Assembly (NCBI GenBank): GCA_019113745.1
Contig: DXGV01000003.1
Location: 1-64,000, forward strand
Source: Candidatus Blautia intestinavium
GTDB lineage: Bacteria > Bacillota > Clostridia > Lachnospirales > Lachnospiraceae
DNA: 64,000 nt
Direction of reading: 5' to 3'
A program made the position numbers and the translations under genes. Below are positions 51,125-64,000 of this stretch, one piece after another; position 1 is the first letter of the stretch; each line of letters opens with the position of its first letter. The notes under the pieces are model-generated. The model did no database searches, had not been told where the DNA came from, and saw only the letters and a list, made by a program, of their open reading frames with translations.

Positions 51125-51195
51125 GAAAAAGAACATAAGTTACAAGATAAATATCATTCGTTCCAAAAAGACGTGTTATCTATGGAGGAATTGTC

Positions 51196-52356
51196 ATGAG
51201 TGGTTACCGAGAATTATACCAGCCTGCCCATACGATCATCGGAAAGGGCAGTATTAATGAGATACCCCGTCACATCGATCTGATTTCCGGACGAAAAGCG
51301 CTTGTCGTTACGGACGGGGGTCTGAAAAAGATAGGAACATTGAAGAAAGTTACAGACGTTCTGGAACGTCAGGGGAAGAGCTATGCCGTTTATACAGGCG
51401 TAAAATCCAATCCTACAGTGTCTATTGTAAACGAGGCGAAAGCTGTATATGACAGAGAAAACTGCGATTATCTCATCGGGATCGGCGGAGGATCCCCCTT
51501 GGATGTGGCCAAAGCGGTCAGCATCCTTGCCGGCAACGGAGGAAATATTGAAGATTATAATGGCCTGGATAAATCAAAAAGAACCGGAGCGCCTATCATT
51601 GCGATCAATACCACGGCGGGTACAGGTTCCGAAGTGACAAGGGCTTACGTTGTTACGGATGAAGTGAAAAAAAGCAAAATGCTTATGGTGGACGCCAATT
51701 GTCTGGCGTATCTTGCCATTAACGATCCGGAGCTAATGATCGATATGCCGCCTGCCCTGACGGCTTCTACAGGAATGGACGCGCTGACACATGCCATCGA
51801 GGCTTATGTGGCGAAATCTCATTTCCCATTCACCGACGGGATCGCACTGGAAGCAATCGCTTTGATTGGAAAATCACTGGAAAAGGCATATCGGGACGGA
51901 CATGATATCGAAGCCAGGACAGACATGTGCTGGGCGGAATATATGGGCGGTCTGGCTTTCTCCAACGCCGGACTGGGGATGGTTCATGCAATGGCCCATC
52001 AGTTGGGCGGTTTCTATAATACACCCCATGGAGTGGCCAACGCGATCCTTCTGACACATGTCATGCGCTATAATACGCCGTCCTGTAAAGAAAGGTATGC
52101 GGACGTTGCAAAAGCTCTCGGTATTAATATTTCCGGGATGACTGCGGATCAGGCGGCAAATGCCGCTATCGAGTATATCGAAGGCATGGCACGGAGAATG
52201 AAGATACCGAAACTGTCGGAGACGGCGTTCCGCCCGGGCGACGTTATAACACTGGCGCTTCATGCCCTGGATGACACAGGAATGCCGGAAAATCCCAGAG
52301 AGGCAACTCTGGTAGATGTGCAGAAAGTATTTATGGACGCATACTATGCGAAATAG
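51196..52356 (+). CDS. Iron-containing (group III) alcohol dehydrogenase
   Basis: 386 residues, NAD(P)-dependent. GIGGGSPLDVAKA binds the cofactor; metal ligands lie in TGMDALTHAIEAYV (Asp, His) and GMVHAMAHQLGGFYNTPHG (two His). Reduces aldehydes such as acetaldehyde, lactaldehyde or butanal. It has its own strong promoter. Convergent with the SorC regulator of the sugar/BMC region, so it might dispose of aldehyde made there; this is inference. Confidence 0.92.
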   Translation: MSGYRELYQPAHTIIGKGSINEIPRHIDLISGRKALVVTDGGLKKIGTLKKVTDVLERQGKSYAVYTGVKSNPTVSIVNEAKAVYDRENCDYLIGIGGGSPLDVAKAVSILAGNGGNIEDYNGLDKSKRTGAPIIAINTTAGTGSEVTRAYVVTDEVKKSKMLMVDANCLAYLAINDPELMIDMPPALTASTGMDALTHAIEAYVAKSHFPFTDGIALEAIALIGKSLEKAYRDGHDIEARTDMCWAEYMGGLAFSNAGLGMVHAMAHQLGGFYNTPHGVANAILLTHVMRYNTPSCKERYADVAKALGINISGMTADQAANAAIEYIEGMARRMKIPKLSETAFRPGDVITLALHALDDTGMPENPREATLVDVQKVFMDAYYAK

Positions 52357-52459: not shown

Positions 52460-53419
52460 TCAGGGATTCATATAATCATCCTGTCTTAATATCAGATCTG
52501 CAGTCTCTTCGCTGGTGATCAGGATATTGGCAATACCGCCGTTTAAGGCTCCCAGCATGGAGTCTACCTTGCTCAGGCCCTGAGCGACACAGATTCGGTA
52601 CTTCTTCTTCTTTATTTCTTCCAGAGGAACGGCAATCGTCCGTTCGTCCAGTTCCGGATCGCAGATATTTCCGTGAATATCGATCAAGTGTGAACAGATG
52701 TCGCCCACAGCGCCTCTGTCCGCCAGAAGCTTCATTTCGTCATGGCTGATATATCCGGCATGGACGAGAGCGCTTTTCTGGCCGAAAGCGCCGGTGGTAA
52801 TAAGCGCGATATTGGAATCGTATCCATACTGCAGGATCTTTGCTATGTTGTGATCCTTTTGAACAATGTCCTTCATGCGTTTGGAATCCATAACGGCCGG
52901 AAGGGGCAGGGTGTAGGAAATGCTGCCGATGGAAACGGAGAAATTGTTGCCGATCTCTGTAGCGTAGATGCTTTTGTTAAGATTGCTGATGCCTCCGCAA
53001 AGCTGCACGGCAATAATATTATGCAGATCGTTCCGCTGAAGGAGCGCCTGAGAACAGGCGTGGATCGTGGCTCCCCATGACAGTCCGATGATATCGTTAT
53101 CCTGGAGAATGGAGTCCAGAAAACGAGCAGCCTCCAGCCCGAGACGGGATAAGGAAGCGGGTCCCTCGGACATCGGTACGATACGGACTTTTTCCAGGCG
53201 GAAGCGTTCGCGCAGCTTCTGCTCCAGAGGTGTTTCCGTGCTGAGCGGGTCAATGACCTGAAAACGGACAATCCCGTTTTCCTTTGCCTCATTCAGAAGC
53301 TTGGAGATATAGGGCCGGGACAGTCCAAGCTTTTTAGCGATCATTTCCTGGCTGAAATCATTTTCATAATATAATTTTGCCACCTTTACCAGCAATTCGA
53401 TTCGTTTATAATCCGTCAT
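52460..53419 (-). CDS. SorC/DeoR-type sugar-responsive transcriptional regulator
   Basis: 319 residues. N-terminal helix-turn-helix (about 20-45; FSQEMIAKKLGLSRPYISKLL) and a C-terminal SorC sugar-phosphate-binding domain (about 60-315) including GLSWGATIH and the VAQGLSKVDSMLGALNGG effector region. It is divergent from the sugar kinase operon. Two promoters in the cluster carry the same direct repeat, which this protein is the best candidate to bind; release would be triggered by a phosphorylated sugar. Confidence 0.9.
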   Translation of the reverse strand: MTDYKRIELLVKVAKLYYENDFSQEMIAKKLGLSRPYISKLLNEAKENGIVRFQVIDPLSTETPLEQKLRERFRLEKVRIVPMSEGPASLSRLGLEAARFLDSILQDNDIIGLSWGATIHACSQALLQRNDLHNIIAVQLCGGISNLNKSIYATEIGNNFSVSIGSISYTLPLPAVMDSKRMKDIVQKDHNIAKILQYGYDSNIALITTGAFGQKSALVHAGYISHDEMKLLADRGAVGDICSHLIDIHGNICDPELDERTIAVPLEEIKKKKYRICVAQGLSKVDSMLGALNGGIANILITSEETADLILRQDDYMNP

Positions 53420-53667
53420 TTTTTTCTACTTCTATCCTCATTTCTTTTATCTTTCACATTCAGTTGTTTTTAATTATATGATGCCATTTAAAGAACGGTT
53501 TTGTCAAGAAAATACCATGGTTTCTTTTGACCGATTTCTGAAAAAACAGAGGAAATCAAGATGTATAAAATGCTGATAATTTTTCGATAAAATGCAAGAA
53601 AATATGTCTAATTACAATAGAAAACAAAAAATAAGAGCTAAAAATTGTGCATAAGAACAAATAATAG

Positions 53668-53696
53668 TTGACAAGTGTAGAAAATTATTGTAGTAT
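53668..53696 (+). promoter_or_regulatory. Promoter of the sugar kinase-ABC operon
   Basis: Perfect TTGACA (53668-53673), 17 bases, TAGTAT (53691-53696). Confidence 0.82.
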
Positions 53697-53705
53697 TCAA
53701 ATATA

Positions 53706-53736
53706 AACAAATGATATTAATTAAGTAACATATGTT
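53706..53736 (+). promoter_or_regulatory. Operator-like direct repeat, copy 1
   Basis: AACAAATG (53706-53713) and AACATATG (53727-53734) are exactly 21 bases apart, just after the transcription start; the second half lies in the palindrome AACATATGTT. The same arrangement occurs at 59792-59820. Confidence 0.65.
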
Positions 53737-53776
53737 CCTAAAACACAGGCAAAGCACCAATTTCAGGAGGTTGTTT

Positions 53777-55279
53777 ATGGAAGCATATTTTATGGGAATT
53801 GATACGGGAACACAGGGAGTCCGGGTTGCTGTCAGCAATAAGGAAGGCGTTCTTCTTTTTGAGGAAGAGAAAAAATGGGAGACGCTGTTTCCGAAAAAAG
53901 GCTGGGCGGAGCAGAACCCCCTGGACTGGTGGGATGCAATTTCCGGTATTTTTGAGGATGCTTTGGCAGGTCTGGGAAGGGAACAGATGAAAAAGATCCG
54001 GGCCGTATGTGTCTGCGCCACTTCTTCTACCGTGTTTCCGGTAGACCGGGACGGACGGCCTTTGCGAAACGCTATGATGTGGATGGACGCCCGCTCCAGA
54101 AAAGAGATGGACGCGATCAACGAGACGAAGCATCCGGTATTGGATTACTGCGGAAAAGAGACGTCTTTTGAATGGATGATTCCGAAAGCGCTGTGGCTGA
54201 AACATCATGAACCGGAAATATACGGTTCATGCTACAAGATCGTGGAACAGCTTGACTGGATTAATTACCAGCTCTGCGGCGAATGGTCATCCTCTATCTG
54301 CAACACTACCTGTAAGTGGAATTATGTAGCTTCCCTGGGAGGCTATCAAAGAGACTTTTTTGAACAGATCGGGTTTGAAGATTATGAAGAAAAACTGGTA
54401 ATGCGGGTGGATAAGATCGGCGATACGGTGGGCTCCATCCGCCTGGAGCTTGCGGAAAAATATGGATTCTCGGAAGAAATGGAAGTTGTTCAGGGAGGGA
54501 TCGATGCTCATATGGCGATGTTCGGACTGGACGTTCTCAGACCCGGAAAGCTCGGCATCATTATGGGAACCAGTTTTGTCCACCTCTGTCTTTCCGATAA
54601 GAAACCGGATATGCCGGGGATCTGGGGGCCTTACGACAGCGCAGTACTTGATGGGATGTGGCTCCTGGAAGGCGGACAGATTTCCGCATCCGGTCTGGTA
54701 AACTGGTTCAGAAAAAATTTCCATATTCCGGAAGAAAACGGGAATCCATATGCGAAACTGCTTGACATTCCGGAAAGAATCCCCATCGGAGCGGACGGCT
54801 TAACGGTTCTGGATTTCTTTCAGGGGAATAGAACTCCATACAAGGATGCCGGGGCGAAAGGCGTGATATTCGGTCTGAATATCAGACATACCTGGGAGCA
54901 TATTTACAGGGCGGTTCTGGAGGCGGTTTCCTACGGTACCTATAATATTATCTGTAATTATGAAAAGTATGGCTATATGGTTGATATGATCACAGCCTGC
55001 GGCGGTGTGACGAAAGACGGCCAGTGGATGCAGATGATCTCCGATATTACCGGAAAGCCGATTACCGTGAACCGCAATAGCCAGGCCGGAGCGCTGGGAT
55101 GCTGCGTAGTCTCGGCTGCCCAGGGCAGGGGATATGAAAGTTTTCAGGAAGCGGCGGCGCATATGGTAGTTCCAAAGAAAGTTATTTATCCGGATATGGA
55201 AAAGCACAGGGACTATGAGCCGTATTTCCAAAAGTATCTGGATTTATACCGAAATCTGAAAGATTTTATGCATCAATGA
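53777..55279 (+). CDS. FGGY-family carbohydrate kinase
   Basis: 500 residues. Phosphorylates a sugar or polyol with ATP. N-terminal phosphate loop GIDTGTQGVR (7-16), catalytic Asp region QGGIDAHMAMFG, and C-terminal ATP-site segment TACGGVTKDGQW are visible. AGGAGG lies six bases before ATG 53777. First gene of the kinase-importer operon. The substrate cannot be fixed; a pentose, deoxypentose or pentitol would fit the downstream aldolase and dehydrogenase. Confidence 0.9.
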   Translation: MEAYFMGIDTGTQGVRVAVSNKEGVLLFEEEKKWETLFPKKGWAEQNPLDWWDAISGIFEDALAGLGREQMKKIRAVCVCATSSTVFPVDRDGRPLRNAMMWMDARSRKEMDAINETKHPVLDYCGKETSFEWMIPKALWLKHHEPEIYGSCYKIVEQLDWINYQLCGEWSSSICNTTCKWNYVASLGGYQRDFFEQIGFEDYEEKLVMRVDKIGDTVGSIRLELAEKYGFSEEMEVVQGGIDAHMAMFGLDVLRPGKLGIIMGTSFVHLCLSDKKPDMPGIWGPYDSAVLDGMWLLEGGQISASGLVNWFRKNFHIPEENGNPYAKLLDIPERIPIGADGLTVLDFFQGNRTPYKDAGAKGVIFGLNIRHTWEHIYRAVLEAVSYGTYNIICNYEKYGYMVDMITACGGVTKDGQWMQMISDITGKPITVNRNSQAGALGCCVVSAAQGRGYESFQEAAAHMVVPKKVIYPDMEKHRDYEPYFQKYLDLYRNLKDFMHQ

Positions 55280-55300
55280 CAGGAAAAGGAGGATGAGAGC

Positions 55301-56809
55301 GTGCAGGAACAGAACAACATTCTGGAAATGCGGAAGATCGATAAGCTTTTTCCAGGTGTAAAGGCGCTCGACCAGGTGGATTTTTCCGTGAGAAGGGGAG
55401 AAGTCCATTGCCTGATCGGAGCCAACGGAGCCGGAAAATCAACGCTTATGAAAGTGCTTTCCGGCGCATACGTGGAGGACTCGGGAGAAATTATTTTTGA
55501 CGGAGAAAAACTGAAGCCTCATGGAACTCTGGAGAGAAAGAAAAAAGGCATTGCCGTTATTTATCAGGAACTGTCATTGGTAAATGAATTAACGGTAGGG
55601 GAAAACGTCTACATCAATAATTATCCGAAAACAAAATTCGGGACCGTAGACTGGAAGGAAGTATACAGAAAAACACAGGAGATCGCCGATGAAATGAATA
55701 TGAAGATCGACGTCCGCGCGAAAGTCAGCGATCTGAATATCGGACAGAGACAGATGACGGAAATCATGAAAGCCCTGGCCGGAAACGCAAAGCTGATCGT
55801 CATGGACGAACCGTCTTCTACTTTGTCAAAGCGCGAGTTTGAGACGCTGATACGGCTGATCAGAGAACTGAAGGAAAAGGGGATCACTCTGATCTATATT
55901 TCCCATCATCTGGAAGAACTGTTTATCGTGGGCGACAGGATCACGATCCTCAGGGACGGAAGATTTGTGGCATGCCGCAGCGCAGCCGAGATCAACGAGG
56001 ATGATCTTGTGGAATATATGACGGGAGCGAAAGTCAGCAGCCAGAAAACGTATGTGGAAGCCAAACCTCTGAACGAGGAAAAGGTGCTGGAAGTAAAAAA
56101 TCTCTGCAATGAGAAAGTCAGCAATATTTCCTTTGATCTTCACAGAGGGGAAGTGCTTGGACTGTACGGTCTGGTAGGAGCCGGACGAACAGAAGTGATC
56201 CGATCGATATTCGGCGCGGATCCGTTCAGCGAAGGGGAGATCCGCCTTCATGGAAAGCCGGTCCATTTCAAACATACAGGAGAAGCAATCGCCAACAAGA
56301 TCGGCCTGATCCCGGAGAACAGAAAAACACAGGGTCTGGTGCAGATTCTTCCTGTCTGGGAAAATATGACGATGGTCGCTCTTGATAAATGCAAAAAGAA
56401 TAAGATCATAAATTATAAGATTATTCAGGAAACATGTGAGAAATATAAAAAGAGCCTGAATATCAAAACGCCTTCAATCAATACGATTATCCAGAACCTC
56501 TCCGGCGGGAACCAGCAGAAAGTGATCATTGCCAAATGGCTGTTCCGGGACTGCGATATCCTGCTGATTGACGAACCTACACAGGGCATCGATGTGATGG
56601 TAAAAGAGGAGATATATAAAATTATTCACCAGCTTTCGCAGGAGGGAAAAAGTATGATTGTGGTTTCATCGGAACTGGATGAGCTGCTTCGTATCTGCGA
56701 TAACATTATCGTGATGTTTGACGGGAAACAGATCATGTCCTCGTCAAAAGAAAACTTCGATGCAGATAAAATTTTACAGGTTTCTGTTACAGGGAGGAAC
56801 GAATCATGA
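55301..56809 (+). CDS. Ribose-type sugar ABC importer, ATPase
   Basis: 502 residues with two ATPase domains, as in RbsA/MglA. First domain: Walker A GANGAGKST, signature-like NIGQRQ, Walker B IVMDEPSS. Second domain: degenerate Walker A GLVGAGRTE (usual for the family), signature LSGGNQQK, Walker B LLIDEPTQGID. Start is GTG 55301, eight bases after AAGGAGG. Overlaps the permease gene by ATGA (56806-56809). Confidence 0.93.
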   Translation: MQEQNNILEMRKIDKLFPGVKALDQVDFSVRRGEVHCLIGANGAGKSTLMKVLSGAYVEDSGEIIFDGEKLKPHGTLERKKKGIAVIYQELSLVNELTVGENVYINNYPKTKFGTVDWKEVYRKTQEIADEMNMKIDVRAKVSDLNIGQRQMTEIMKALAGNAKLIVMDEPSSTLSKREFETLIRLIRELKEKGITLIYISHHLEELFIVGDRITILRDGRFVACRSAAEINEDDLVEYMTGAKVSSQKTYVEAKPLNEEKVLEVKNLCNEKVSNISFDLHRGEVLGLYGLVGAGRTEVIRSIFGADPFSEGEIRLHGKPVHFKHTGEAIANKIGLIPENRKTQGLVQILPVWENMTMVALDKCKKNKIINYKIIQETCEKYKKSLNIKTPSINTIIQNLSGGNQQKVIIAKWLFRDCDILLIDEPTQGIDVMVKEEIYKIIHQLSQEGKSMIVVSSELDELLRICDNIIVMFDGKQIMSSSKENFDADKILQVSVTGRNES

Positions 56810-57753
56810 GGAAAGAACCGTTAAAAATAGGAGATTTGCTGAAAAAGTACAATTTACTGGTACTGTTGATCGTATTTGTAGTGATCTCATCCATTTTGTC
56901 GCCGAATTTCCTGACGCTGGGCAATCTTCTGAATCTGCTTCAGCAGGCGTCGATCCCCGGAATCGTGGCGATAGGAATGACGATCGTCATCATACTTGGA
57001 GGAATCGACCTGTCTGTCGGCTCTGTGGCCGCTTTCGCAGGAATGATCTCATCCATTATGGTGAGCGCGGGTATTCCGATCGTGATATCTATTCTTGCAG
57101 GCGTGGCTCTGGGCGCGGTTCTGGGACTTGTCACCGGCGTATTGATCGCGCGTTTCGGACTTCCTGATTTTATCGCGACACTGGCGATGATGGAGATCGC
57201 CAGAGGAGCGGCTCTTCTTACCACAGCCGGAGTTCCGGTGTTCGGACTTCCTGCTGAATTTAAATTTATCGGAGGCGGGTTCATCGGACGGGTTTCCGTC
57301 AGCGGCATTATCTGGATCCTTCTGACTGTTTTTTTCATGCTGATGCTGAAATACACGACTTTTGGACGCAGCCTGTTTGCAATCGGTGGCAACCGTGAGG
57401 CGGCGACGCTTTCCGGTATCAAGACGACAAGAAATTACGCGCTGGCCTATGTGATCTGCGCCTGTCTTTCGGCTTTCGCGGGCGTTCTGACTGCTTCGTG
57501 GCTGGCTACCGGACAGCCGACGGCCGGAGACGGAATGGAGCTGAACGCGATCGCCGCGTCTGTTATAGGCGGAGCCAGTCTTTCCGGCGGTATCGGATCG
57601 ATCGTCGGTACTTTCGGCGGCGTATTTCTGCTCCAGATCATTACCAATATCTTTAATCTTGTAGGTCTGGCTTCGTTCTACCAGCAGATTGCCAAAGGTA
57701 TCATCATTATCGCGGCGTTGCTTCTGAACCGTGCCATTGATTCAAGAAAATAA
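56806..57753 (+). CDS. Ribose-type sugar ABC importer, permease
   Basis: 315 residues, about ten helices, RbsC family. The cytoplasmic loop GGNREAATLSGI that contacts the ATPase and the GGASLSGGIGS segment are characteristic. Forms the membrane channel with the two-domain ATPase; overlaps its gene by ATGA. Confidence 0.93.
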   Translation: MRKEPLKIGDLLKKYNLLVLLIVFVVISSILSPNFLTLGNLLNLLQQASIPGIVAIGMTIVIILGGIDLSVGSVAAFAGMISSIMVSAGIPIVISILAGVALGAVLGLVTGVLIARFGLPDFIATLAMMEIARGAALLTTAGVPVFGLPAEFKFIGGGFIGRVSVSGIIWILLTVFFMLMLKYTTFGRSLFAIGGNREAATLSGIKTTRNYALAYVICACLSAFAGVLTASWLATGQPTAGDGMELNAIAASVIGGASLSGGIGSIVGTFGGVFLLQIITNIFNLVGLASFYQQIAKGIIIIAALLLNRAIDSRK

Positions 57754-57814
57754 GAATGATGAAGTGCCGATGAGTACTTATCAGATAAAAAATACCATTT
57801 AAGGAGGAATGAAG

Positions 57815-58795
57815 ATGAGAAAAAAAGGTATCGTAGCAGTATTGACTGCAGCAGCTATGGTGGCATCCATGGCAATGACCGTAAGCGCGGCTGAGGACAC
57901 CGCAGAGAACACGGACGCCAGCTATAAGATCGGTTTTGCACAGTGTACGCTGGCATCGCCCTTCTATGTATCCATGAAGGATGTTGCGGAAGAATACGCC
58001 AAAGAGCTGGGCGTGGAGCTTACGGTTGTAAGCGCGGATGACGACGTTACAAAACAGAATAATGACATCAACGATATGATCACCAGCGGTATCGATGCCC
58101 TGATCGTAAATCCGATCAACGCAGAGGGAATCGCGCCGGCTATCGAGGCATGTACCAACGCAGACATTCCGGTAATCACCGTTGACCGGAACATCAACGA
58201 AGGCTATACCGCTTATGTAGGACGCGACAATGAAGAAATGGGACGTCTGGTAGGCGAGGCGCTTGTAGAGCTTCTGGGCGGAAAAGACGCGGCTGAAGGA
58301 ACCATCCTGGAGATTCAGGGAACCGCAGGCGATACAGTTATGATGGCAAGAAGAGATGGATTTGAGGCGGCTGTCGCAGAGGCTCCCGGCCTTGAGGTAG
58401 TGCAGTCCGCATACTGCGATTACACCAGAAGCAAAGCCGTTACAGCTACACAGGACCTTCTGCAGAGCAACGACAACATCGTGGCTGTATATGGACACAA
58501 TGACGATATGGCACTGGGCGCATCTCAGGTTCTGCAGGAGCAGGGCGTGGAAGGCGTTGCAGTCTGCGGCGTGGACGGACTGATGGAAGCAGTTATGGCC
58601 ATCGAAGACGGCACATATTCCATTACCACCATGAACGACCCGGGCTCTCTGATCAGAGCGGCTCTTGACACAACTCTGCAGATTCTGAACGGCGAAGACT
58701 ATGAAGAATATGTAGACGCGGGCACAGGTGTTATCGACAGCGAGAATGTAGCGGATTATGTAGACGACAGTCTGGCTTTCGCGGCAATGAAGTAA
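57815..58795 (+). CDS. Ribose-type sugar ABC importer, substrate-binding protein
   Basis: 326 residues, RbsB-like fold (IGFAQCTLASPFY near the start, ALIVNPINAEGI, VYGHNDDMALGA). ATG 57815 lies seven bases after AAGGAGG; the ATG at 57809 is too close. The signal peptide (MRKKGIVAVL..., cleavage near TVSA) has no Cys, so unlike most Gram-positive binding proteins it does not look like a lipoprotein. Binds the imported sugar outside the cell. A weak hairpin follows the gene. Confidence 0.9.
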   Translation: MRKKGIVAVLTAAAMVASMAMTVSAAEDTAENTDASYKIGFAQCTLASPFYVSMKDVAEEYAKELGVELTVVSADDDVTKQNNDINDMITSGIDALIVNPINAEGIAPAIEACTNADIPVITVDRNINEGYTAYVGRDNEEMGRLVGEALVELLGGKDAAEGTILEIQGTAGDTVMMARRDGFEAAVAEAPGLEVVQSAYCDYTRSKAVTATQDLLQSNDNIVAVYGHNDDMALGASQVLQEQGVEGVAVCGVDGLMEAVMAIEDGTYSITTMNDPGSLIRAALDTTLQILNGEDYEEYVDAGTGVIDSENVADYVDDSLAFAAMK

Positions 58796-58881
58796 ATCAA
58801 AAAAGTGCATACATGCTGTTCAGCAGTAATACGGGAACACGTTTGTGGAAACAGGAACAGCGGGAAAGGAAAAAAGATTCT

Positions 58882-58915
58882 GGCTGGCCATAAACTGTGG
58901 CCGGCCGTTTCTTTT
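58882..58915 (+). terminator. Weak terminator or attenuator after the binding-protein gene
   Basis: GGCTGGCC pairs with GGCCGGCC (one G-T pair), then GTTTCTTTT. It would reduce read-through into the next genes. Confidence 0.6.
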
Positions 58916-58946
58916 ATAAAAATTCTAATAGTGGAGGAGACAGAAT

Positions 58947-59168
58947 ATGTATCGACTGATCAAACTGGAAGAGGCGAATGACCTGAGGGATTTTATGCAT
59001 CTGGCATGCAAATGCAAAAGCGACGTGGGAGTCCACACAGATGAAAACCAGATTGCGGATGCGAAATCCATTCTGGGACTGATGGCCCTCGACTATCATC
59101 ACCCGGTGAAGGTGGTAACAGAAGACGAGGCCTTTCTGAAAAAATTAGATAAATGGGCGGTGGAATAA
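58947..59168 (+). CDS. HPr-like protein lacking the phosphocarrier histidine
   Basis: 73 residues aligning with HPr: CKSDVGVHTDE corresponds to the FKSD strand, and DAKSILGLMAL to the Ser46 regulatory site, which is intact. The active-site HARP segment is absent; by alignment His15 is replaced by Glu in LEEANDL. It therefore cannot act in the PTS but could be phosphorylated on Ser like Crh of Bacillus and signal in catabolite repression. GGAGGAG precedes the ATG. Lies ten bases before the acetyltransferase gene. Confidence 0.75.
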   Translation: MYRLIKLEEANDLRDFMHLACKCKSDVGVHTDENQIADAKSILGLMALDYHHPVKVVTEDEAFLKKLDKWAVE

Positions 59169-59177
59169 GGAGACTTT

Positions 59178-59729
59178 ATGAAGACGGAATATGAAAAAAT
59201 GGTTTGTGGAGAATATTATGATTCTCTTTCCGAAGAGATCCTGGTTCATGTGCGGAGGGCAAGAGCACTGTGCGACAGACTGACGGAGTTTAAATCTGAC
59301 GAAGAGGAAAAAAGTAGGATTATAAAAGAACTCTTTGGAACTACAGGAGAAAAGGTCGCCGTCAATCCTCCTTTTACCTGCGATCATGGAGAGCATATTC
59401 ATGTGGGCGAGAATTTTTTTGCCAACTATGACTGTACGATCATGGACGCCTGCGATGTGCGGATCGGAAAAAACTGTCTTCTCGGCCCAAAGGTTTCTAT
59501 ATTTTCGGTAGGGCATCCGCTGGATGCGGAACTCAGGGCAAAAAGACTGGCGATCGCGAAGCCGGTCACGATTGGAGACAATGTATGGATCGGCGGAAAC
59601 GCGGTGATCTGTCCGGGCGTGAAAATTGGAAATAACGTAGTGGTAGCCGCGGGAGCGGTAGTAACGAAAGATCTGCCGGACAATGTTCTGGCAGGAGGAA
59701 ACCCGGCGAAGATCATCAAAAAAATATAA
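59178..59729 (+). CDS. Maltose/galactoside O-acetyltransferase-like protein
   Basis: 183 residues: N-terminal helical MAC domain (about 3-55) followed by left-handed beta-helix hexapeptide repeats (IGDNVWIGGNAVICPGVKIG). The catalytic His is in SVGHPLD. Transfers acetyl from acetyl-CoA to a sugar hydroxyl; in sugar operons it is thought to remove non-metabolisable sugars by acetylation. AAGGAG precedes the ATG. Confidence 0.9.
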   Translation: MKTEYEKMVCGEYYDSLSEEILVHVRRARALCDRLTEFKSDEEEKSRIIKELFGTTGEKVAVNPPFTCDHGEHIHVGENFFANYDCTIMDACDVRIGKNCLLGPKVSIFSVGHPLDAELRAKRLAIAKPVTIGDNVWIGGNAVICPGVKIGNNVVVAAGAVVTKDLPDNVLAGGNPAKIIKKI

Positions 59730-59751
59730 CCGGGTGTTTCTAACATTCATA

Positions 59752-59779
59752 TTGACAGTTTGTTTGCTGTGTGATACTC
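59752..59779 (+). promoter_or_regulatory. Promoter of the isomerase-aldolase-BMC operon
   Basis: TTGACA (59752-59757) followed by TGTGATACT (59770-59778). The -10 spacing is short (15 bases to GATACT) but a TG extension is present. Confidence 0.6.
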
Positions 59780-59791
59780 TTATCTCATAAG

Positions 59792-59820
59792 AACAAATGA
59801 TAATAATATAGTAACATATG
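59792..59820 (+). promoter_or_regulatory. Operator-like direct repeat, copy 2
   Basis: AACAAATG (59792-59799) and AACATATG (59813-59820), 21 bases apart as in copy 1. The flanking bases also match (AAGAACAAATGATA and AGTAACATATGT). Confidence 0.65.
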
Positions 59821-59855
59821 TAACAAAAACACAAATGCAGAAAAAGGAGCTGCGT

Positions 59856-60644
59856 ATGGACAGGACAAAGGTGGATCAGATCATTCATGAAGTAGTGGCG
59901 AAATATTTCCGAAAGCCCCTGATCGTGGCGGGAAACTGGAAAATGAATATGACTGTACGGGAAGGTCTGGACTTTCTTGAAAAGCTGGGGAGCACAGAAG
60001 GAAACGTCCTGATTTTTCCTCCGTATACCACTCTTGCCGTACTGGCGCCGGAAATGAAAAAACGGGGTATCCTGTACGGTCCGCAGAATTTTCATTATGA
60101 AGACAGCGGCGCGTTTACAGGGGAGATTTCCATTCCCATGATCCGCGAGCTGGGATGCAGCTTCCTTCTGGCGGGACATTCCGAAAGACGCGGTTATTAC
60201 AATGAAACGGACGAAGCTCTCGGCAAAAAGGTGGCGAAGGGAATCCGTTCCGGTTTTCAGGTAATGCTATGTATCGGTGAAAGCCTGGAGGAGAGAAGAA
60301 GCGGACAGTGGCAGAGAAAGCTGACGGAGCAGATCGTTCTGGATCTGAGGAAACTGGAAAAGGAGGAACTGGATTCTATCCTGATCGCATATGAGCCGAT
60401 CTGGGCCATTGGAACAGGCGTCAGCGCGTCTCTGGAAGAGATCAACGAGACGCACAGTTTTCTGAAAATGACAATGCGGGAGATGTTTGGCCGCGATCTT
60501 CCACTGTTATACGGCGGAAGTGTAAATGAGAAAAACGCGCAGGAGATCGGAAGCTGTCCTTATGTGGACGGATTTCTGATCGGAGGGGCGAGTCTGAATC
60601 CTGAAAAATTCAGGAAGATCATCGAAGTCAGCAGAGGCGTGTAA
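59856..60644 (+). CDS. tpiA: Triosephosphate isomerase with N-terminal targeting helix
   Basis: 262 residues. Interconverts glyceraldehyde-3-phosphate and dihydroxyacetone phosphate. Catalytic Lys29 (GNWKMN), His108 (AGHSERR) and Glu180 (AYEPIWAIGTG) are intact. The usual start RKPLIVAGNWKMN is preceded by 18 extra residues (MDRTKVDQIIHEVVAKYF) with hydrophobic residues at 6, 9, 10, 13, 14, 17, 18: an amphipathic helix like BMC encapsulation peptides. ATG 59856 is six bases after AGGAG. Not linked to gap/pgk, so probably a pathway-dedicated copy. Confidence 0.93.
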   Translation: MDRTKVDQIIHEVVAKYFRKPLIVAGNWKMNMTVREGLDFLEKLGSTEGNVLIFPPYTTLAVLAPEMKKRGILYGPQNFHYEDSGAFTGEISIPMIRELGCSFLLAGHSERRGYYNETDEALGKKVAKGIRSGFQVMLCIGESLEERRSGQWQRKLTEQIVLDLRKLEKEELDSILIAYEPIWAIGTGVSASLEEINETHSFLKMTMREMFGRDLPLLYGGSVNEKNAQEIGSCPYVDGFLIGGASLNPEKFRKIIEVSRGV

Positions 60645-60709
60645 TGTCCGGGATCGTACCGGATTTTACCAGATAGAAATGAAATACAAATGGAAAGTGA
60701 GGGCAAATT

Positions 60710-61456
60710 ATGGAAATGGAGCAGTTGGTCAGCAAAATTACGGCGGAGGTTCTGAACAGCATCCGGAATCAGGGAGGCCTTGGCGGCGCTTTTAGTCAGA
60801 ACGGCGCGTCCGGAAATATAGCGGGGATGATCGATCATACTTTGCTGAAACAGGACGCCAGTGAGGAACAGATCAAAAAGCTTTGTCAGGAAGCGAGGGA
60901 ATATCATTTTTGTTCCGTATGCGTAAATCCCTCCTATGTTCCGTTGTGTTATGAGGAACTTCGCGGCAGCGGCGTAAAGGTGTGTACAGTAATCGGATTT
61001 CCTCTGGGGGCCACTACTACAAAATCAAAAATTTTTGAGGCCAACGAGGCGATCGAGAACGGGGCAAATGAAGTAGATATGGTTGTAAATGTGGGAAAGA
61101 TCAAATCCGGCAACTGGCAGTATGTGAAAAAAGATATTGCCGATCTGGTAACTGCCGTTCACGGAAGAGCAGTTGTAAAAGTAATCATCGAGACCTGCCT
61201 GCTGACAGATGAAGAGAAGGTTCACGTATGCCAGATTGCAAAAGAAGCAGGAGCGGATTTTGTAAAAACCTCCACAGGTTTCTCTACCGGAGGGGCGACT
61301 ACGAAGGACGTTGCTCTTATGCGCAGAACCGTAGGCCCGGATATGGGAGTAAAAGCTTCCGGAGGAGTCCGGGGACCGGAAGACGCAAAAGCTATGATCG
61401 AAGCAGGCGCGAACCGTATCGGCACCAGCGCGGGAATCGCCATCGTCCGGGGATAG
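60710..61456 (+). CDS. deoC: Deoxyribose-phosphate aldolase with N-terminal targeting helix
   Basis: 248 residues. Cleaves 2-deoxyribose-5-phosphate to glyceraldehyde-3-phosphate and acetaldehyde. Schiff-base Lys186 lies in [14 protein letters not shown]; the second active-site Lys is in [11 protein letters not shown]. The enzyme proper starts near residue 39 ([10 protein letters not shown]). In front are a helix ([19 protein letters not shown]) and a Gly/Asn/Ser linker, the arrangement of a BMC encapsulation peptide. GTGAGGG precedes the ATG. Confidence 0.93.
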
Positions 61457-61496
61457 ACTGAAAAAGATCATATTGAGAAAAGGAGATGCGTAAGAA

Positions 61497-62561
61497 ATGG
61501 CACAAAAAATGAGAGCGGTAAGATTATTTGCACCAAAGGATATCCGCTGTGTGGAGGTGGACATTCCTCATATTGAAAAGGACACGCAGGTTTTGATCAA
61601 GGTAAAGAGCTGCGGCGTATGCGGATCTGACATTCCCCGTGTTATGGTAAAGGGAACCTATCACTTCCCCACGACCATCGGACATGAGTTCGCCGGCCAG
61701 ATCGTGGACTGCGGAGATAAAGTGAAAAACAATCTGACAGTAGGGGACCGCGTATCTGTTATGCCGCTGATTCCCTGCGGGGAATGCCAGTACTGTAAAG
61801 TGGGCCAGTCTCATCTGTGTGACCACTATGATTATTACGGATCCAGACGCGACGGCGCTATGGCGGAGTATGTTGTGGTAGAATCCGAAAACTGCCTGAA
61901 ACTTCCGGACAATGTGGACTATGAAGAAGGATCCTTTACCGATCCGGTTTCCGTAGGTCTTCACGCAGTCAGAAAATGCCGTCTGGAAGCCGGTAAAACG
62001 GCAGCCGTATTCGGACTGGGAGCGATCGGCTATATCTGCGTACAGTGGCTGAGAGCGTTGGGATGTACGAAGGTTATCGCAGTAGATGTGGCGGACGATA
62101 AACTTGTGCTTGCAAAACGTCTTGGCGCGACGGCTGGCGTAAACGGAATGAAGACAGACGCCGTGAAGGCGATCAAAGAGCTTACAGGCGGCGAAGGCGT
62201 AGATATTGCCATTGAGTTTGCGGGAAATAAGGTCACGCACGTTCAGGCAGTGGAAGCCTGCAAAAAGAACGGAGAAGTCGTGTACGGCGGTATTACATAC
62301 GACGATGTAAATTATCCGAATAAGGCGATCCAGGCGATCTTAAGAGGCGAGCTTACCATCCATGGGAGCTGGAACTCCTCGATCAATCCCCTTCCAATTA
62401 ACGAGTGGAAGAGTGGTCTTGAATTTATGAGCACAGGTCAGATGAATGTAAATCCATTGATCACACACCGCGTTCGTCTTGAGGACTGCAAAGAAGTATT
62501 TGAAATGATGTTCCATCGTACAGAAGTATTTACCAAGGTGCTGTTTAAACCGGAAATGTAA
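61497..62561 (+). CDS. Zinc-dependent polyol-phosphate dehydrogenase (GatD-like)
   Basis: 354 residues, medium-chain dehydrogenase. Catalytic zinc site SCGVCGSD and GHEF; structural zinc cysteines CGECQYCKVGQSHLC; NAD fold FGLGAIGYICVQ. YGSRRDGAMAEY and the later HGSW resemble galactitol-1-phosphate 5-dehydrogenase. It would oxidise a phosphorylated polyol to a ketose phosphate, or reduce an aldehyde. No extra N-terminal helix is seen, so it may act in the cytosol or be carried into a shell by a partner. Confidence 0.9.
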   Translation: MAQKMRAVRLFAPKDIRCVEVDIPHIEKDTQVLIKVKSCGVCGSDIPRVMVKGTYHFPTTIGHEFAGQIVDCGDKVKNNLTVGDRVSVMPLIPCGECQYCKVGQSHLCDHYDYYGSRRDGAMAEYVVVESENCLKLPDNVDYEEGSFTDPVSVGLHAVRKCRLEAGKTAAVFGLGAIGYICVQWLRALGCTKVIAVDVADDKLVLAKRLGATAGVNGMKTDAVKAIKELTGGEGVDIAIEFAGNKVTHVQAVEACKKNGEVVYGGITYDDVNYPNKAIQAILRGELTIHGSWNSSINPLPINEWKSGLEFMSTGQMNVNPLITHRVRLEDCKEVFEMMFHRTEVFTKVLFKPEM

Positions 62562-62651
62562 AAGTACGGCCAGGACAGAAAAGGTCCGCGCTAAAAAACA
62601 GTATAAAAGGAATCTGTAAAAGGAAAACTCAGATAAGAGGAGGAAGAAAGA

Positions 62652-62933
62652 ATGACACAGGAAGCTTTAGGGTTAGTGGAAACAAGAGGACTTACAGCGG
62701 CTATCGAGGCGGCCGATCAGATGTGTAAGGCTGCAAATGTCGCGCTGGTTGGAACAGAAAAGATTGGTTCCGGTCTTGTGACCGTTATGGTACGCGGAGA
62801 CGTGGGCGCTGTTAAATCCGCCGTAGAGAGCGGAAGCACCGCAGCCTCCAGACTGGGCGAACTGGTTGCGACTCATGTGATCCCAAGACCGCATACAGAC
62901 GTGGAGAAGATTCTGCCGGTAATCAAGGCGTAG
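62652..62933 (+). CDS. BMC-H hexameric microcompartment shell protein (PduA/EutM-like)
   Basis: 93 residues, a single BMC domain of standard length. [20 protein letters not shown], the pore loop [24 protein letters not shown] and [14 protein letters not shown] match PduA/EutM-type shell hexamers closely. Such proteins tile the facets of a protein shell around metabolic enzymes; the KIGSG pore usually passes small polar metabolites. GAGGAGG lies eight bases before the ATG. A hairpin follows the gene. Confidence 0.95.
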
Positions 62934-62971
62934 TTGAAAGAAAAATAGATACACTGATGTGAAAGAGCGAG

Positions 62972-63048
62972 ATACCTCTGTCGTGGTATATATAAATAAA
63001 ATATTGCCTGATATTTTGTAAATGTATGTCAGGCAGAGGTATTTTGTA
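62972..63048 (+). terminator. Nested hairpin after the BMC shell gene
   Basis: ATACCTCTG (62972-62980) pairs with CAGAGGTAT (63034-63042); TGCCTGA (63005-63011) pairs with TCAGGCA (63029-63035), the two right arms overlapping by two bases, so they may be alternative folds. TTTTG follows. Confidence 0.6.
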
Positions 63049-63110
63049 TCGCTGGCGGTGCGGAACAAATGGAGATCATGCAGAAATGGTCTTTTTTTGT
63101 AAGTTTATAT

Positions 63111-63142
63111 GAAATATATTTCTCTATAGAAATATATTTCTA
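63111..63142. promoter_or_regulatory. Twin palindromes, possible operator
   Basis: GAAATATATTTC at 63111-63122 and again at 63129-63140, 18 bases apart; the second extends to the 16-base palindrome TAGAAATATATTTCTA. About 100 bases before the next start codon. Confidence 0.5.
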
Positions 63143-63244
63143 AAAACTGCAGCGTTTTATTGCAAAAACATACGAATTTGCGTCGTGAAAAGACAGCGTT
63201 AGTGTACAAGGAGACAATTCTGGCTGGAAAAGGAGGATGAAATA

Positions 63245-64000
63245 TGGCGATAAAGTACAGTGCGATCATAGGCTCGCTGGGACAGACTTCAGATCGTTTC
63301 ATGCGAATGGGATATAAAGATCCCCAGATTGATAAAGTGGAATTTCCGGATGTGATTAAGTCTTTGGAGAAGACAGGATGTATTCAGGGGGCTGATCTTT
63401 ACCAGGCTCCGGACGGGCCATTGTCTGATCCGGATACAGTAAATGAAATTCTTGAAGCGTCGGGCTTTGTATGCTCGTCTGTTCTGCCGCAGGTTTTCGG
63501 GGATCGCAGATGGCGGTATGGCTCTATCGCGGCAGCCGATCCGGAAACGAGAAAAGAAGCAATGGCGCTGATCCGGAAAAATATTGATTTTAATGCAAAA
63601 TTAATCGGAAATCCAAGTGTAAATCTGTGGCTTGGACAGGATGGATTTGATTATCCTCTTCAGACAGATTATACGAAACAATGGGATTATCTGGTGAAAA
63701 GTGTAAGAGAATTGGCAGACTATAACCCCCAAATACGTCTGACTCTGGAAGGAAAGATCCGGGAACCCAGAAACCGATGTCTGGTGGATACAACAATGAC
63801 GGCGCTTCTGATATGCATGGAAGTGGACAGAGCAAACGTAGGCGTTGCCATCGACACTGGACACGTATTTCAGGCACAGCAGAATGTAGCCCAGAATATT
63901 GAGGTGGCGGCGCGTTATCAAAAACTGTTTATGATCCATGCCAATGATAATTATAATCTCTGGGATGACGATATGATCGTGGGTTCTCTTCGGACGACGG
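63245..64000 (+). CDS. TIM-barrel sugar isomerase/epimerase, 3' end outside window
   Basis: 252 codons to the window end with no stop. The sequence fits the xylose-isomerase-like TIM-barrel family: metal-site candidates are Glu in LTLEGKIREPRN, Asp/His in VAIDTGHVF and His in FMIHANDN. It would isomerise or epimerise a sugar or sugar phosphate. ATG 63245 lies eight bases after AGGAGG; the ATG at 63237 abuts it. Separated from the BMC gene by a hairpin and possible operators, so it may begin a new transcript of the same locus. Confidence 0.78.

Follow-up and report, generated by a model that had tools for sequence, protein, structure and literature searches.

The stretch of DNA analysed here ("the window", bases 1-64000 of the 76018-base contig C48) comes from Candidatus (Ca.) Blautia intestinavium, whose assembly is 2.73 Mb in 60 contigs and 82.7% complete. 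Near its end lies a group of genes for the import and breakdown of a sugar or polyol, centred on a deoxyribose-phosphate aldolase (DeoC) and including one gene for a shell protein of bacterial microcompartments (BMCs). The locus spans about 51.1-75.9 kb of the contig and is wider on both sides than the interval (52460-64000) for which a first-pass annotation had named eight gene types. All eight are there, each with a clear match to its family by Pfam or NCBIfam profiles. That annotation read them as a sugar-phosphate-utilizing (SPU) type of BMC that makes its own compartment. Gene content supports a DeoC-centred, shell-associated catabolic locus akin to the SPU types, with a triose-trapping partner and an aldehyde dehydrogenase. 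The self-built compartment did not hold up: C48 has one hexamer gene (BMC-H) and no pentamer (BMC-P) or trimer (BMC-T) gene, and the only BMC-P gene found in the genome is in another locus, of the propanediol utilization (PDU) type.

Genes of the locus

The aldolase lies on the forward strand in the gene order TPI-DeoC-ADH1-BMC-H. DeoC (60710-61456) passes the equivalog cut-off for deoxyribose-phosphate aldolase (TIGR00126, 299 bits against 117.3; also PF01791), its closest solved relatives bear the same name, and enzymes of this family yield acetaldehyde and glyceraldehyde-3-phosphate. The triosephosphate isomerase (TPI, 59856-60644; PF00121, 9.8e-76) carries the NWKMN, GHSERR, and AYEP-WAIGTG motifs of the glycolytic enzyme, which have a catalytic role. 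(The profile search for TPI was run from 59835, and we set the start at 59856.) By family profiles, ADH1 (61497-62561) is a zinc-containing medium-chain dehydrogenase/reductase (MDR) that resembles galactitol-1-phosphate 5-dehydrogenase (GatD), and galactitol-1-phosphate dehydrogenase is its nearest relative. The shell protein (62652-62933; PF00936, 105.5 bits) is a BMC-H of the PDU (PduA-like) type.

Upstream are the genes for regulation, uptake, and phosphorylation. The regulator SorC1 (SorC/DeoR(Bsu)-type) is on the reverse strand (52460-53419; PF04198, 1.7e-61; 317.5 bits to NF053881, under its cut-off of 420). The remaining genes of the locus inside the window are on the forward strand. 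FGGY1 (53777-55279; PF00370/PF02782) is a sugar or polyol kinase that reaches no NCBIfam cut-off and is nearest to pentulose kinases, under every cut-off; the start at 53777 is the gene caller's placement, and the longest frame begins at 53732. A ribose-type ATP-binding cassette (ABC) importer follows, with an ATPase (55301-56809, by family profiles), a permease (56806-57753; PF02653, 8.3e-39), and a substrate-binding protein (57815-58795; PF13407, 4.4e-64). On the far side of SorC1 is an iron-type alcohol dehydrogenase, lactaldehyde-reductase-like (Fe-ADH, 51196-52356; PF00465, PF25137), which the first-pass annotation did not include. It adjoins SorC1 in two Blautia relatives and FGGY1 in Robinsoniella, and a SorC1-type operator precedes it, so we consider it part of the locus; its role is probably the recycling of NAD+.

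Downstream of the hexamer gene, a xylose-isomerase-like TIM barrel (63244-64233; PF01261, 2.8e-22 for the full protein) runs over the end of the window at 64000. The genes from 64.2 to 75.9 kb were also outside the first-pass annotation. They encode a PHP-domain protein (64357-65661), which has no relative in the PDB at E 0.01; a rhamnulokinase-like kinase, FGGY2 (65664-67136); a second zinc dehydrogenase, ADH2, with an N-terminal extension (67160-68287); an aldehyde dehydrogenase, AldDH (68347-69744); a second ribose-type importer (69941-74720); and a second SorC regulator, SorC2 (74901-75848). AldDH belongs to the CoA-acylating EutE/PduP group (PF00171; PRK15398, 648.8 bits against a cut-off of 403) and is the enzyme that had been predicted to lie beyond 64 kb. 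Its nearest solved enzymes are named aldehyde dehydrogenases, which we take to be of the CoA-acylating BMC type. The BMC-P, BMC-T, and phosphotransacylase genes that had been expected alongside it were not found or recognised on C48.

The order of the genes from Fe-ADH to the TIM barrel is the same in Ca. Blautia faecipullorum and, with one additional oxidoreductase gene after BMC-H, in Ca. Blautia excrementipullorum. The core of this order is also found in Robinsoniella peoriensis, so the clustering is not due to chance. Within the interval, two genes had been overlooked. The first encodes a 73-amino-acid HPr-like protein (58947-59168; PF00381, 24.0 bits with a cut-off of 23) that is 90-93% conserved in Ca. 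B. excrementipullorum and Ca. B. faecipullorum. By eye, its phosphorylatable-histidine region is missing and a Ser46-like motif is retained, a pattern that presumably resembles that of Crh. The other is a hexapeptide protein like maltose acetyltransferase (59178-59729; PF12464, PF00132).

Shell genes, the hexamer, and N-terminal extensions

The genome has 14 matches to PF00936 and one to PF03319 (BMC-P). A profile search of C48 found one PF00936 match and none to PF03319. Contig C18 has seven PF00936 matches in six proteins, adjoining the only BMC-P, and so encodes BMC-H, BMC-P, and (by PF00936) BMC-T. It also encodes, by Pfam, a class II aldolase, an aldehyde dehydrogenase, PduL (PF06130), a PduS-like protein, a reactivase, a PduO cobalamin adenosyltransferase, three diol dehydratase subunits (PF02286, PF02288, and PF02287), and, further along, an L-fucose isomerase; EutP and PduQ were read by eye. 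Because of this content we regard C18 as a fucose/propanediol (PDU-type) locus. Among the genes identified at 51-76 kb of C48 there is no diol dehydratase (PduCDE), and no phosphotransacylase was recognised there. RpiB (PF02502) has three matches in the genome, on C31, C57, and C55, and none on C48. Shell genes are dispersed over five contigs: besides C18 and C48, orphan shell genes are on C10 (two BMC-H), C17 (two BMC-H of the EutS/PduU type and an EutP-like gene), and C20 (one two-domain BMC protein). A pentamer gene and an aldehyde dehydrogenase, whose absence from the whole genome would have counted against the first-pass annotation, thus both exist, on C18 and C48.

In the text of Sutter 2021 (PMC8217296) that we draw on, satellites are distal loci with shell proteins and optional enzymes, and DeoC and RpiB are common to the SPU subtypes; in that of Axen 2014 (PMC4207490), the presence of enzymes makes a locus satellite-like. 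The C48 locus has the DeoC-type PF01791 and the aldehyde dehydrogenase PF00171 of an SPU main locus but no RpiB, and PF00936 without PF03319 is an insufficient set of shell genes. It is not a self-sufficient SPU compartment. It is a satellite by Sutter's definition. By Axen's it is satellite-like because enzymes are present: a strict satellite has no further BMC-related genes, and this locus has DeoC, AldDH, and the enzymes with N-terminal extensions described below.

The hexamer of the window shares 96% identity with one from C18 and 68-73% with four SPU hexamers from Dorea. For Robinsoniella's satellite hexamer, identity is 88% with the PDU hexamer of the same genome and 80% with the hexamer of the window. 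In a tree of 51 rows (28 of them different; 34 are from loci L024-L041), the Blautia satellite hexamers fall among Blautia PDU hexamers (93/82, branch unstarred) and the one from Robinsoniella sits next to the PDU hexamer of that genome (94/92, branch unstarred). Approximately unbiased (AU) tests reject a single clade of the four satellite hexamers (p-AU 0.0053) and a clade that joins the satellites with the SPU hexamers (p-AU 0.0004). This suggests that in two genera the hexamer goes with the PDU shell of the host and is not of SPU type. In contrast, ADH1 is 88% identical between the satellite lineages, and their DeoCs form one group (85/85).

Several of the enzymes have N-terminal extensions like the encapsulation peptides (EPs) of BMC cargo. 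DeoC has about 35 N-terminal residues that are missing from EP-less relatives, and its structure model has a helix (residues 3-20), a linker with pLDDT below 50 (19-35), and a confident core. The extension resembles those of SPU DeoCs from Dorea and Atribacteria. TPI has about 20 additional N-terminal residues, with a modelled helix at 3-17, relative to the TPI that is beside phosphoglycerate kinase in the same genome. It is therefore likely to be co-encapsulated, in keeping with its proposed role as the partner that traps the triose. We also built an EP profile of 13 residues from eight PDU-type cargo N-termini that were chosen by eye. (Several of these are near-identical between the window genome and Ca. 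B. faecipullorum, and the window genome's PduL, which is not among its called proteins, was omitted.) The number of background proteins that scored as high was 1 of 696 for AldDH, 6 for TPI, 31 for DeoC, and 37 for ADH2. For ten other proteins of the locus it was 109-586 (the importer proteins were outside this test), and FGGY1, ADH1, and Fe-ADH have no tag. The background is not free of tags, because its top match is a protein from another BMC locus (L084, in genome G047). Overall, an N-terminal helix that is missing from cytosolic homologues, as expected for encapsulated cargo, is found for DeoC and TPI by comparison with homologues and for AldDH and ADH2 by the profile.

The background protein from L084 is 31% identical to the window's DeoC by BLAST and has no Pfam match. 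Its locus (L084:8864-11955), in the same genus, has three BMC-P (PF03319), one BMC-H, and an MDR dehydrogenase.

Operators and relatives

Two repeats recur upstream of the genes on C48. The first is a 31-bp inverted repeat, AACAWATGWTA-N9-TAWCATWTGTT, with sites (no strand assigned) before Fe-ADH (51132-51162, 2 mismatches), before FGGY1 (53706-53736, 0 mismatches, 9 nt past the end of a promoter-like -10), and before the TPI-DeoC-ADH1-BMC-H group (59792-59822, 1 mismatch). When 3 mismatches or fewer are allowed, the 2.73 Mb assembly contains no site besides these 3, and the reversed pattern, as a control, gives 1. The same search found 6 sites in Ca. B. faecipullorum (five in the locus; control 0), 3 in Ca. 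B. excrementipullorum (all in the locus; control 1), 4 in Robinsoniella (two in the locus; control 2), and 1 in the presumed Dorea sp. D27 (control 1, so this count is no better than the control). Counterparts are present before Fe-ADH, FGGY1, and TPI in both Blautia relatives (at Fe-ADH with 2-3 mismatches in Ca. B. faecipullorum and 3 in Ca. B. excrementipullorum), before FGGY1 and Fe-ADH in Robinsoniella, and before ADH1 in Dorea D27.

The second repeat, GAAATAWATTTC-N6-GAAATAWATTTC, is found before the TIM barrel (63111-63140, forward strand), the PHP gene (64305), and the second importer (69895). C48 has no site besides these 3, and 30 shuffles had none; the search covered C48, C18 (36.0 of 36.5 kb), and the relatives' loci. 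Ca. B. excrementipullorum has two counterparts and Ca. B. faecipullorum has one, at which its contig ends. From their positions, we assign the first repeat to SorC1 and the second to SorC2 as predicted operators. Two types of operator with three sites each suggest two adjacent regulons. Promoter-like sites were not enriched overall (24 found, 18.1 expected), and shuffled sequences contained about as many promoter-like and terminator-like sites or modestly fewer. A scan for catabolite-response sites with 2 mismatches gave scattered matches without clear meaning, and we dropped it.

A tagged DeoC (91-100% identity, full length) is present in 3 of 64 genomes of the genus and ADH1 (E ≤1e-120) in 3 of 397 genomes of the family, the window genome included in both cases. 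When named genomes were scanned with ADH1, 77 loci came up, of which we annotated 10 and parts of three more. Six have identities of 56-99%, and the other 71 have 41% or less. The six are two from Blautia, one from Robinsoniella, two from Dorea, and an SPU locus from Atribacteria (56%) that has RpiB (PF02502); ADH1 is 83-88% identical to the Dorea and Robinsoniella copies. In Robinsoniella, the genes of the cassette (SorC1 to FGGY1) share a strand, and a PDU-type shell locus lies about 17 kb away.

Both Dorea loci have ADH1, FGGY1, TPI, AldDH, DeoC, PduS, BMC-T, two BMC-H, and three BMC-P (PF03319) together. We took the genome with locus L104 (G446, contig C3) as Dorea sp. D27, which is among the SPU4 organisms in the text of PMC8156839 that we draw on. 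Like the window locus, the Dorea loci have N-terminally extended DeoC and TPI, a CoA-acylating aldehyde dehydrogenase, a ribose-type importer, ADH1 (83-86% identity), FGGY1 (58-59%), and a SorC1-like regulator in the flank (cut by the end of the locus in L104). Unlike it, they have PduS and a shell set of their own, where the window has one PDU-type BMC-H only, and the D27 locus has a PTA_PTB phosphotransacylase. In the presumed D27 genome, whose SPU4 locus has a tagged TPI, both matches to RpiB, which has been described as common to all SPU subtypes, are on another contig. The Dorea DeoCs (L103:16657-17505 and L104:16687-17532) have a cysteine-rich, 4Fe-4S-like C-terminal tail, CxxCxxCxxxCP, that is missing from the Blautia and Robinsoniella cassette DeoCs. 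We do not claim that the whole cassette originated from SPU4: ADH1 and ADH2 are near those of Dorea, but the DeoC tree joins the satellites to two EP-less DeoCs from Blautia (80/91). In one genome (L080:9859-11665, G034), an extension-less DeoC (70% identity) adjoins a SorC1-like regulator (52%), and this pair is a possible cytosolic ancestor of the regulator and the aldolase.

Other systems share parts of this arrangement. According to the text of PMC8217296 that we draw on, ethanolamine utilization (EUT) modules ride on satellite loci of HO, SPU3, and SPU6 BMCs. Like C48, these are distal loci with signature enzymes and a shell protein, and they would extend the main BMC to a second substrate. 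They differ in that ethanolamine enzymes use SPU or HO shells, where on C48 SPU-like enzymes would use a PDU shell, and in that they bring an EutL-type trimer, where the C48 cassette has a hexamer along with its own importer, kinase, and regulators. The PDU BMC itself has the same type of hexamer, and its PduL, pentamer, and trimer are presumably shared; it differs in its diol dehydratase (missing from the satellite), in its signature chemistry, and in its regulators. In Amphibacillus cookii, a distant relative of ADH1 (38%) is in a Gat-type phosphotransferase system (PTS) operon with DeoC, RpiB, ribulose-phosphate epimerase, and transketolase; L117:4692-13191 contains Gat-type EIIA, EIIB, and EIIC and two ADH1-related MDR dehydrogenases. 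Unlike C48, this operon has no shell genes in view, its DeoC is untagged, and it has a PTS instead of an ABC importer and an FGGY kinase. By analogy, it may be an unencapsulated parallel of the pathway. PTS operons for D-arabitol with arabitol-phosphate dehydrogenases are described in the text of PMC6685057 that we draw on, and our guess is that the A. cookii operon takes arabitol.

A proposed shared shell and its alternatives

We propose, with a probability of roughly 60%, that the SPU-like cassette is an enzyme-bearing satellite that plugs into the PDU-type shell. The observations behind this are the gene content, the missing shell genes, the PDU identity of the hexamer, the N-terminal extensions, and the two sets of operators; the assembly and the enzyme activities are predictions. 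In the presence of an inducer, SorC1 would release three units: Fe-ADH, FGGY1 with the importer, and TPI-DeoC-ADH1-BMC-H. The imported sugar or polyol would be phosphorylated and oxidised in the cytosol to an aldose phosphate like 2-deoxypentose 5-phosphate. DeoC, TPI, ADH2, and AldDH, which have EP-like N-termini, would be packed into a shell made mostly of C18 proteins: the C18 locus would supply pentamers, trimers, and the phosphotransacylase PduL, and the satellite hexamer would join the same shell. Inside, as expected from the enzyme families, DeoC would yield acetaldehyde and glyceraldehyde-3-phosphate, and TPI would shift the triose to dihydroxyacetone phosphate. Acetaldehyde would be converted to acetyl-CoA and then to acetyl-phosphate, with the C18 PduL regenerating CoA, and Fe-ADH would turn part of the acetaldehyde into ethanol, which would restore NAD+. 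The adjacent SorC2 regulon, with a tagged AldDH and its own isomerase, kinase, and importer, may feed another sugar to the same shell. No aldehyde dehydrogenase is encoded in the Robinsoniella cassette itself, and the nearest one in that genome is the PduP of the shell locus, which fits one shared lumen.

As for the substrate, our preferred candidate is a 2-deoxypentose or the corresponding polyol, with a probability of about one third. Salvage of deoxyribonucleosides is disfavoured because neither a nucleoside phosphorylase nor a phosphopentomutase was recognised among the genes identified from SorC1 to SorC2 and because Ca. B. faecipullorum and Ca. B. excrementipullorum have a second DeoC, without the extension, elsewhere. 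We did not assign L-rhamnose to the second regulon, as FGGY2 reaches 375 bits of the 528-bit rhamnulokinase cut-off and the isomerase reaches 66 of the 531 bits for RhaI.

Several results weigh against a shared shell. The hexamer tree was built from an alignment of 92 columns with some long-branched rows, and stars mark only 3 of its 25 inner branches. Many genomes of the genus have a PDU-like hexamer (42 of 60 show a best match at E ≤1e-45, Ca. B. excrementipullorum omitted), so its presence together with the cassette is no proof by itself. With the EP profile, DeoC and ADH2 give weak signals and the TPI of Robinsoniella is missed (511 of 696 background proteins score as high), so we grade the evidence for these putative tags as good in the case of AldDH and TPI and as moderate in that of DeoC and ADH2. 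Hydrophobic moment failed to discriminate tags (28% of 99 background proteins equalled or exceeded the N-terminus of the C18 PduP), and we rejected it as a test. Ca. B. excrementipullorum (89% complete) carries a cassette that includes AldDH, DeoC, TPI, BMC-H, and both regulators, but its assembly has no BMC-P or PduP, which leaves one of the three Blautia carriers without a detected pentamer gene. AldDH belongs to the SorC2 regulon, apart from DeoC. Finally, neither the SorC1 nor the SorC2 element was found in the 36.0 kb searched of the 36.5 kb of C18, so the shell locus is under control of its own and is not co-regulated with the cassette by these regulators. Here the shared-shell model has a real gap: co-expression must be achieved by other means.

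The enzymes might instead be free in the cytosol, with the hexamer retuning the permeability of the PDU shell or being a relic and the helices serving another purpose. The untagged FGGY1, ADH1, and Fe-ADH and the modest EP signal of DeoC and ADH2 are consistent with this, and the text of PMC8217296 that we draw on already has the idea that satellite shell proteins tune permeability. We think it unlikely, as four enzymes carry the extension together, as it is missing from the EP-less DeoCs and from the TPI that neighbours phosphoglycerate kinase, and as that of DeoC is like the one in the SPU DeoCs of Dorea and Atribacteria. It is quite unlikely that the locus is a self-contained compartment of the SPU type, with its pentamer and trimer genes in the unassembled part of the genome. 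The genome is incomplete and in many contigs, and the Dorea relatives do combine related enzymes with three BMC-P, BMC-T, and PduS of their own, but Ca. B. faecipullorum is 97% complete and its one BMC-P is inside its PDU locus. The Robinsoniella cassette is also without an internal pentamer gene (that genome's two BMC-P genes are elsewhere), and the hexamer is not of SPU type.

PduA-type hexamers that are expressed alone can form tubes, so the single hexamer could also make pentamer-free sheets or tubes, an open scaffold for tagged enzymes with no closed shell. BMC-H is the sole shell gene near SorC1 sites in the window genome, and Ca. B. excrementipullorum carries the cassette with no pentamer gene found. 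Such a scaffold would not retain acetaldehyde, and in two genera the hexamer is closest to that of the host's PDU shell, which fits co-assembly better, so we view it as very unlikely.

Satellites that carry enzyme modules are already described in the text of PMC8217296 that we draw on. In the literature searched, we found no case of SPU-like enzymes in a satellite locus that serves a PDU shell, with a hexamer closest to the shell of the host in two genera. SPU compartments appear there, in the portions of text covered, as predictions from genomes, with no experimental study evident.

The cassette is a small version of the SPU system with defined operators in gut Lachnospiraceae, among them Robinsoniella peoriensis WT, a named strain, so SPU chemistry is testable gene by gene. 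More tentatively, and at rather less than even odds, the shell may be a shared chassis for complete cargo cassettes (importer, kinase, regulators, tagged enzymes, and one hexamer that is re-matched to the host shell after arrival), so that one organelle would serve two or more sugars under the separate regulons of SorC1, SorC2, and C18. If the shell is shared, these compartments would be interchangeable chassis rather than organelles for one substrate, and the travelling hexamer would be a natural experiment in shell compatibility and addressing. Our results suggest that one organelle can serve two diets.

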